64,000 bases of DNA from Leptotrichia sp. oral taxon 498. Lineage in GTDB: Bacteria > Fusobacteriota > Fusobacteriia > Fusobacteriales > Leptotrichiaceae. The position numbers were made by a program, and so were the translations under genes. The stretch covers positions 992,001-1,056,000 of the forward strand of contig NZ_CP016753.1 in the NCBI RefSeq assembly GCF_002240055.1, read 5' to 3'. The notes beneath the pieces were generated by a model that did not search any database, was not told the DNA's origin, and saw nothing but the letters and a program-made list of their open reading frames with translations. Positions 47,911-51,383 of this stretch are shown in pieces. The first letter of the stretch is position 1, and every line of letters starts with the position of its first letter.

Positions 47911-47961
47911 TAAAACATACATTTATCTTTAACTTTTAATTTTAAATAATGAATTATATCT

Positions 47962-48126
47962 GACAGCTCCCCATTATCCTATTGATAATGACAGTTCTAC
48001 GGATATTCTCCACAGACCCAGTATCAAAGCTGGTCAAACTTTGTACTTCGGCAATTATTCCTTTCAATTTATTTCATCAAATTGACCATTCTCCGTAAAT
48101 CTACTTATAATAATTGCACCTCTATC
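47962..48126 (-). promoter_or_regulatory. Lysine riboswitch (L-box aptamer)
   Basis: The minus-strand RNA begins GATAGAGGTGC (48126-48116) and closes with CTGTC (47966-47962), which pair as stem P1. Conserved L-box segments appear in order: AAGTAGA, GGAGAATGG, TTGAAAGGAAT, TGCCGAAGTAC, CTGGGTCTGTGGAG and AGAACTGTCA, matching the B. subtilis lysC leader pattern I recall. 165 bases is the normal size. Together with the downstream terminator hairpin it fits a transcriptional off-switch for lysA-lysC-unknown-dapF-dapA. The remaining part of the 380-base gap is the promoter and the terminator. Confidence 0.92.
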
Positions 48127-48141
48127 TTTTTTATATTTATT

Positions 48142-49532: not shown

Positions 49533-50414
49533 TTATTGTCCCAATTGTGCAGCCACTTCTGCAGCAAAATCTACTTCTTCTTTTTCGATTCCTTCTCCAA
49601 CTTTAAATCTGTCAAATGAAATAATTGTGCTTGGAGCGATAAATTTTTCAACAGTAACTTTGTCATCTCTTACATATTTTTGTTGAACTAGACAATTTTC
49701 TTCATAAAATTTTCTCATTTTACCTTCCAATATTTTTTCAATTATATTTGCAGGTTTTCCTTCAGCTGTTAATTGATGTCTTGCAATTTCTTTTTCTCTA
49801 TCCAAGTCAGCAGTTGTAACTTGTGATTTGTCCAAATATTTAGGATCCATTGCAGCTACATGCATTGCAACACCTTTTGCTTTTTCAATATTTTCGTCAG
49901 TTGCTTCACCATTTACATTTAGTAAAACTCCAATTTTTCCGCCTAAGTGAATGTAAGTTTCGATAAATCCTGTAGTTGCAACTAATTTTAATCTTCTGAT
50001 GTTCATGTTTTCACCAATTTTAGCGATTAATTCTGTCAAGTGAGTTTCGATAGTTTTTCCTTCGTGTTCAAATGCTTTTAATTCATCTTCACTTGTCAAA
50101 TCGTGTTCCAAAGTTAATGTAACTAATTTTTCTCCAAAAGATTTAAATTCGTCATTTTTAGCAACGAAATCTGTTTCTGAGTTAAATTCCAAGATAGCAC
50201 CTTTTTTTCTATCTTCAGAAACTGCTGCGAATACTAATCCTTCAGCTGCTACTCTTCCTGATTTTTTAGCTGCTTTAGCAATTCCTTTTTCTCTTAACCA
50301 GTCAATTGCTTTTTCGATGTCTCCATCATTTTCTCCTAGAGCTTTTTTACAGTCAAGCATTCCTGCTCCAGTTCTTTCTCTTAATTCTTTAATAAGTGCT
50401 GTTGTAATTGCCAC
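49533..50414 (-). CDS. tsf: Translation elongation factor Ts
   Basis: Guanine nucleotide exchange factor for EF-Tu. Seen: [20 protein letters not shown], then [29 protein letters not shown], and [13 protein letters not shown]. 293 residues, standard. GTG start after TAGGAGG. rpsB, normally adjacent, is 1.4 kb away because a PspC gene, a TPR gene and a mobile-type element intervene. Confidence 0.97.
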
Positions 50415-50492
50415 TTTATTTTCCTCCTATATTATTTATTTCTAATTTTTGTTTTTTTTATTTTGTTTAATAATCAATTTATTAGTGAACTG

Positions 50493-50585
50493 CTCCAACT
50501 TTTAGAAGTTAGAGATTCTTGGGAATTATTTGCTTTTATTAGCCAAATATATTTACCAAGCTCTACGGACAGTCCCTGTCCTGAT
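50493..50585 (-). ncRNA. Putative structured RNA of the IS200/IS605-like element (omegaRNA-like)
   Basis: Predicted transcript from about 50585. Hairpin 1: GGACAG-GGA-CTGTCC (50581-50567), perfect. Hairpin 2: outer CTTGG (50560-50556) with CCAAG (50522-50518), inner TATTTGGC (50549-50542) with GCAAATA (50533-50527) and one bulged G. Hairpin 3: the element end stem (50514-50493). This layout, ending at the right-end hairpin, resembles TnpB guide RNAs, but no tnpB is adjacent, so the assignment is inference. Confidence 0.5.
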
Positions 50586-50591
50586 ATATTT

Positions 50592-50620
50592 AGTATAATA
50601 AACTTTGTTATGAATATCAA
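50592..50620 (-). promoter_or_regulatory. Promoter inside the IS200/IS605-like element
   Basis: Minus strand TTGATA (50620-50615), 17-base spacer and TATACT (50597-50592). It points through the folded RNA toward tsf, and no terminator lies between the element and the tsf start, so it may also drive tsf. Confidence 0.7.
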
Positions 50621-50687
50621 GCAAAAATGCAATTCATCTCCCACTTATAGAAGTTGGAGACTTCTTACTATCTTTTTGTTAAAAAAA

Positions 50688-51383
50688 TTATTTTGAAATA
50701 TTTTTTAATATATTTAAGATTTCTGGATTTGTTTTATCAAATTCTAAAAATTCCTTTGCATATTTTTCTGCCATCTTATGATTTTTAGTACCACTATAAT
50801 AAATTGCTAATCTATATATAGAATATGCATTACCAATTAATGCCATTTGTTTGTGTTCTCTAAGTTCTTTAAGTTTATCATGCGTAAAGCCGGCATCCGA
50901 CAGTTGCTTTTCATATTTGTCTACTATGCTATTTTTTTCATTTTTCTCTTTAACAGTCAAATTTAATGATTTTAGATAATCTTCGTCACTGTATAATAAA
51001 AACAGTGAATACACTCCTGTGTCGTCATCTCCTAATTCAATTGCTTTTAAATAATACTTCTCTGCCTCTTTTTGATTACCTAGTATATCATAATCAGTTC
51101 CTATCTCTTCATAAGCGTAAGCATCATTTGGATATTTTTTAACATATTCTTTTAATAATGCAATCAGATTTTTCTTATCTCTCTTTTGAGTTAAAGCCAT
51201 GTATTTATTTTTAAATTCAGTTTTTTCTTTTGAATACATATTCATAAGGCTTCCATCTACTGCAAAATATTGATTATCTATATTTGCCGTATAATTTGAA
51301 GTGCTCGTAGTTTTTTTCTGGCTATTTGCACCTAGAACACTTAAACTTGCTATTAAAAATAGTCCAATCAAAACTTTTTTCAT
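50688..51383 (-). CDS. Exported TPR-repeat protein
   Basis: Secreted protein with tetratricopeptide-type repeats. Seen: signal peptide (about residues 1-19, ending VLGANS), then helix pairs such as YPNDAYAYEEIGTDYDIL, QKEAEKYYLKAIELGDDD and ENKMAEKYAKEFLEFDKTN-like segment near the C-terminus (HKMAEKYAKEFLEFDKTNP). 231 residues. Partner unknown; TPR folds mediate protein contacts. It lies within the rpsB-tsf interval and its stop codon is about 25 bases from the mobile-type element. Confidence 0.75.
   Translation of the reverse strand: MKKVLIGLFLIASLSVLGANSQKKTTSTSNYTANIDNQYFAVDGSLMNMYSKEKTEFKNKYMALTQKRDKKNLIALLKEYVKKYPNDAYAYEEIGTDYDILGNQKEAEKYYLKAIELGDDDTGVYSLFLLYSDEDYLKSLNLTVKEKNEKNSIVDKYEKQLSDAGFTHDKLKELREHKQMALIGNAYSIYRLAIYYSGTKNHKMAEKYAKEFLEFDKTNPEILNILKNISK

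Follow-up and report, generated by a model that had tools for sequence, protein, structure and literature searches.

A protein-less IS200/IS605-type element upstream of tsf in Leptotrichia carries a putative promoter and a predicted TnpB guide RNA

The window analysed here, that is, the whole 64-kb stretch of Leptotrichia sp. oral taxon 498 DNA, contains a 194-nt IS200/IS605-type element with exact ends (50678-50485, minus strand), located 71 nt upstream of tsf and on the same strand (Table 1). Two kinds of empty sites set the ends of the element: the gap-free ones of its sister copies, and the tsf site, which is empty in two congeners, G002 and G005. A previous reading of this DNA made from its letters alone (the sequence-only reading) had recognized an element at this place, and it is indeed present, but its exact span differs slightly from the 50480-50665 that had been proposed. 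Neither tnpA nor tnpB was found within this copy, in agreement with that reading, and the proposed order of left end (LE), promoter, RNA and right end (RE) holds when read on the minus strand: LE is followed by the promoter and then by an omegaRNA that ends in the RE hairpin and the tail GTTCAC, beyond which host flank begins. A repeat-protein gene (50688-51383, minus strand), absent or swapped for differing relatives in congeners, lies between rpsB and tsf. Elsewhere in the window, a lysine riboswitch (RF00168, 118 bits; 47956-48132, minus strand) precedes genes for diaminopimelate decarboxylase-like and aspartokinase-like proteins.

Table 1. Features of the solo element and its surroundings, in window positions
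Feature	Position	Strand	Basis
Complete solo IS200/IS605-type element, no coding gene	50485..50678	minus	Sister-copy and tsf empty sites
TTTAA target site / transposon-associated motif (TAM) adjoining LE	50679..50683	minus	Common to solo and tnpB copies
LE hairpin	50638..50660	minus	Direct repeat of RE hairpin; same LE in tnpB and tnpA+tnpB copies
Putative promoter TTGATA-17-TATACT	50592..50620	minus	Motif and 17-nt spacing kept in 26/28 solos
OmegaRNA (reRNA) scaffold, 99 nt	50485..50583	minus	Other-genera covariance model; Rfam Ref70
OmegaRNA stem 1, loop GGGAC	50567..50581	minus	Compensatory changes
Pseudoknot 5' half GGAC, pairs with GTTC at 50490-50487	50572..50575	minus	
OmegaRNA stem 2	50518..50560	minus	Compensatory changes
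RE hairpin	50493..50515	minus	Direct repeat of LE hairpin
Pseudoknot 3' half GTTC, inside RE tail GTTCAC	50487..50490	minus	
Predicted 16-nt guide, flanking host DNA	50469..50484	minus	Analogy with ISDra2 reRNA (PMC8612924)
tsf, same direction, downstream of element	49533..50414	minus	

The two end hairpins, whose close similarity had been pointed out before, are real direct repeats with 87% identity across 23 nt, spaced 145 nt. Because the promoter lies on the minus strand, this is also the strand of the RNA, so that the hairpin at 50638-50660 is that of LE, and the one at 50493-50515 is that of RE. Subterminal hairpins of this kind are common to the solo copies and the autonomous copies. Fold z-scores of the segment 50470-50680 are -5.4 (plus strand) and -3.6 (minus strand). 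The three consecutive hairpins that the sequence-only reading had placed downstream of the promoter correspond to stem 1, stem 2 and the RE hairpin of the omegaRNA, and the RNA extends 8 nt beyond the last of them, to the element end.

The RNA of the window element is, judged by its fold, a TnpB omegaRNA. To compare it with known omegaRNAs was a check put forward with the original proposal, and we used for it a covariance model (R2) built from 38 tnpB-adjacent RNAs of other organisms (Cetobacterium, Paenibacillus, Heyndrickxia and others). These RNAs had been gathered with a model of the copies of this genus, but their letters are independent of it. The covariation in this model is strong, with two-sided changes in 19 of the 27 pairs and a score of 0.50 vs 0.16 in shuffles. 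The window RNA is its sole match in the 64 kb (82 bits, E 2.6e-18, all 112 positions), and fits it with zero non-standard pairs. GGAC in the stem-1 loop and GTTC in the RE tail form a pseudoknot that is paired in 46/46 copies, and its topology is that reported for the ISDra2 omegaRNA (PMC10097598). By its position, the scaffold of the solo RNA would end at RE, with the adjoining flank as its guide. At 74 of the 79 TnpB loci of Fusobacteriota and Bacillota such an RNA is present 3' of tnpB; the window RNA is not encoded in cis in this way, which marks it as a solo form. No Rfam family was found at its gathering cut-off at the element site.

BLAST against its own genome revealed six further sites with near full-length relatives of the element and about 19 others where only the ends matched. 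These end matches turned out to be both ends of elements of about 1.4-1.8 kb that contain a 365-aa tnpB and are oriented like the solo RNA. Thus, the copies and the full-length tnpB relatives with the same RE that had been anticipated do occur, and these relatives share both ends with the solo copies. A covariance model of the RNA finds 26 omegaRNA copies in this genome, 19 of them after a tnpB of this family, whole or broken, and seven solo. Of the 19 loci in the close tnpB family, 16 are full length and free of stops, and the catalytic motifs are kept in the TnpB copies; an alignment with ISDra2 TnpB covers the length of the protein (E 1.2e-61). Four of the tnpB copies that share the solo ends are directly preceded by an intact tnpA gene (PF01797, Y1 transposase). 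A twentieth, distant tnpB (36% identity; G000:C1:96203-97144) has no internal stop, and there is no match of the RNA model beside it. Among 13 congeneric genomes, five contain solos, 28 in total (7 in the genome of the window, and 3, 9, 1 and 8 in four others), and none were detected in the remaining eight. A pattern scan of genome and viral contig collections, from which near relatives may be left out, gave no match to the solo or its core. In another genus (G014), we noticed an omegaRNA with a subfamily-A promoter and without LE (L137); it adjoins what, judged by eye, appears to be the 3' end of a signal-recognition-particle RNA.

The promoter TTGATA-17-TATACT reported between the hairpins is present on the minus strand (50620-50592), with a predicted transcription start at about 50585. 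Its score is matched by 14 of 500 shuffles of the interval, that is, it is only modestly above chance for the window copy alone. However, a -35 and a -10 box separated by exactly 17 nt occur directly ahead of the RNA in 26 of the 28 solos, the -10 box ending 9-11 nt before it (14 in L045 by script count, where the RNA starts with CAAGG). Promoters of solo subfamily B mostly match at 11/12 positions, which is reached by 0-2 of 500 shuffles, and those of subfamily A, the window copy included, are weaker (9-88/500 shuffles score as well). Full-length copies contain another promoter, TTGAAA-17-TACAAT, read from the sequence of their LE ahead of tnpB. A parent IS with the solo promoter was not found: the 97-nt B-type LE with promoter was fully matched only by solo copies. 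A minus-strand search from the element to tsf found no terminator, as had been claimed; we infer that a transcript of the solo element at this site would also continue into tsf, and an effect of the promoter on tsf is possible.

The identity between subfamilies A and B is 90-95% in the RNA core, 77-81% in LE, 68-80% in the promoter boxes and 22-34% in the promoter spacer, where the likeness is no greater than chance. The core does not belong to the end hairpins, and no other long segment is as well conserved between the subfamilies. Thus, the long segment that is best kept is one that would be needed only for a guide RNA. Sequence exchange with the numerous tnpB copies might account for some of this uniformity without any selection on the solo RNA. 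The loss of parts is tolerated, as two solos lack the promoter spacing and one copy in G009 lacks the RNA. In the latter (L076, at the site of solo L002), an internal deletion left both termini but little of the omegaRNA and no -10 box. Single-hairpin remnants, each about 50 nt long, number at least seven in the same genome (L139-L144 and, upstream of tsf, L053); in these, the start of LE is fused to the RE tail, as expected from a deletion between two similar hairpins.

The motif TTTAA lies directly ahead of the element in 27/27 readable solos and in 22/23 readable tnpB copies. Searches with joined flanks identified the empty sites of four solos (L003, L004, L005 and L006) in G007 or G011, and these place the insertion point directly 3' of TTTAA, without target duplication; at the empty site of L005 the motif has diverged to TTCAA. 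The full LE with the promoter of subfamily B occurs only in solos, and near-identical solo copies sit in unrelated flanks, indicating that solos multiply as solos and do not arise each time by fresh deletion. In two sister species, G007 and G011, the alleles that lack L004 and L006 carry TTTAA as well as a stretch that matches at least 16 nt of the guide perfectly, so that a cut there is possible in principle, these alleles coming from other species than the solos themselves. At the tsf site, G002 and G005 are empty, and G009, the closest congener (tsf 99% identical), contains the single-hairpin scar. The element is not present ahead of tsf in the other congeners.

The sequence-only reading described a solo guide RNA or MITE-like unit without proteins, and this description proved largely right in view of the copies, the tnpB relatives, the covariance match and the non-conserved tsf site. 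At the level of sequence, the ends, the target site, the promoter motif, the guide-RNA fold, the solo multiplication and the intact partner genes could be demonstrated. The element probably represents a non-autonomous IS200/IS605 derivative of the type known as palindrome-associated transposable element (PATE), which lost tnpA and tnpB and kept the ends and, between them, a complete TnpB guide RNA joined to a short promoter, as if it were a parasite of the full IS with a guide of its own. The term parasite would apply because the element would be moved and retained by the proteins of other copies. TnpA of full IS605 copies would excise the solo in single-stranded form and insert it 3' of TTTAA, and the solo's own promoter would produce an omegaRNA whose last 16 nt or so are flanking host sequence. 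TnpB from other copies would bind this RNA in trans and cut TTTAA plus the guide target wherever the element is missing, and repair from the occupied copy would restore the element. It has been described that TnpA peels and pastes a single strand, and that TnpB with its reRNA cuts the vacated site beside the target motif, repair then restoring the element (PMC8612924). Whether such guides act as a dispersed, insertion-programmed set could equally well go either way: each insertion would write a guide of about 16 nt from its flank, and a shared TnpB pool would cut empty alleles in sister chromosomes and in the incoming DNA of relatives, so that a 195-nt unit would home without encoding any protein.

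A simpler reading is that of a plain PATE: TnpA would act in trans on a deletion derivative whose omegaRNA and promoter are passive remnants without an RNA function. Haloquadratum is rich in PATEs for which no RNA function is known (PMC3119063), a PATE of Halanaerobium retains its full RE together with 58 nt of tnpB (PMC7290912), and decayed copies and single-hairpin scars are present here too. However, passive remnants would hardly be expected to keep a promoter with a 17-nt spacer just ahead of the RNA in 26/28 solos though the spacer itself has diverged to about chance identity, nor to have the RNA core as their best-conserved long segment, nor, in the most diverged copy, all pairs of the other-genera model. 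We therefore consider this reading unlikely, though worth keeping in mind.

Two further readings assign the RNA to the host. It could be a guide that directs TnpB, or a silenced relative of it, to regulate a gene in trans, like the guides of TldR, and its own promoter and conserved scaffold would make stable expression plausible. Nevertheless, the guide differs in every copy, as it is taken from the insertion flank, and TnpB keeps its catalytic motifs, so it should cut and not repress. Moreover, partial guide matches elsewhere in the genome are no more frequent than those of a reversed control pattern: for the window guide with TTTAA, only its own flank and weak AT-rich matches were obtained. 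A host-serving guide is thus highly improbable. Still less credible is a leader or regulatory RNA of tsf selected at that place. The element does lie close upstream of tsf in the same direction, with no terminator found in between, but the other 27 copies sit elsewhere, and the site is empty, scarred or free of such an element in congeners. Conservation at tsf across species, named beforehand as the outcome that would speak for a leader, was not observed, and we rejected this candidate on account of the empty and scarred sites.

If the guide RNA of the parasitic derivative favoured here works in trans, the solos would rank with the smallest elements for which homing by an RNA-guided cut is conceivable. 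Their genome offers a natural experiment, with about 16 intact TnpB genes facing 26 guide RNAs, seven of which have no nuclease gene of their own, and with one guide RNA that landed just upstream of the essential gene tsf. It makes testable whether TnpB serves solely to retain the element that encodes it or is a common resource exploited by parasites. Within the literature accessible to us, two central TnpB papers lying outside it, a bacterial solo-guide family with an adjacent promoter, many copies in several species and autonomous TnpA/TnpB partners in the same genome appears to be new. Meers et al., in 2023, are said to have mentioned PATEs.

Protein-less IS605 derivatives, including single-hairpin remnants, are known as PATEs from Haloquadratum walsbyi (PMC3119063), and the accessible text on Halanaerobium describes a PATE with the whole RE and 58 nt of tnpB just as an ends-only sequence (PMC7290912). 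As far as the accessible parts of these two reports go, PATEs and solos are alike in the lack of a transposase gene, the IS605-type end hairpins, the absence of target duplication, the amplification as solo units, and the terminal-only derivatives of about 50 nt that result from deletion between two hairpins. In contrast to PATEs, for which these parts describe no such role, nearly all solos hold in their interior a promoter together with a TnpB guide RNA that is complete and conserved (PMC3119063, PMC7290912).

The reRNA/omegaRNA of ISDra2 resembles the solo RNA in ending at RE, in a guide (predicted for the solo) taken from the flank, in the pseudoknot between the RE tail and the stem-1 loop, and in a TAM that equals the insertion target (PMC8612924, PMC10097598). 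The ISDra2 RNA is made from the 3' end of tnpB, whereas that of the solo is predicted to come from its own promoter, without tnpB. ISDra2 TnpB accepts reRNA supplied from a separate plasmid (PMC8612924). In Rfam, the covariance model of Ref70 (RF02841, Enterococcus sRNA 70) aligns with the window RNA over its full length, stem 1 and the RE tail included, at E 3.2e-4 and with 33.3 bits, far below the gathering cut-off of 115. Unlike the solo RNA, Ref70 follows a tnpB: in Enterococcus faecalis NZ_CP143580 (L148:2501-2610) it lies 4 nt past the stop codon of a TnpB-family gene. Ref70 looks like a TnpB omegaRNA annotated just as an sRNA, and we suggest its re-annotation.

The nearest functional precedent is the Fanzor ghost loci of the chytrid Spizellomyces punctatus, 134 loci without a nuclease gene, whose omegaRNAs supported editing in human cells (PMC10432273). 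Like the solos, they combine transposon ends with an omegaRNA and lack the nuclease gene, and in this chytrid they outnumber the full copies (PMC10432273). The ghost loci are eukaryotic units of about 550 nt with inverted repeats (PMC10432273), whereas the solos are IS605-type units of about 195 nt that pertain to bacterial TnpB, have a sigma70-type promoter next to the RNA and share their genome with TnpA partners. Should their guide RNA work in trans, the solos would be the bacterial counterpart of the Fanzor ghost loci.
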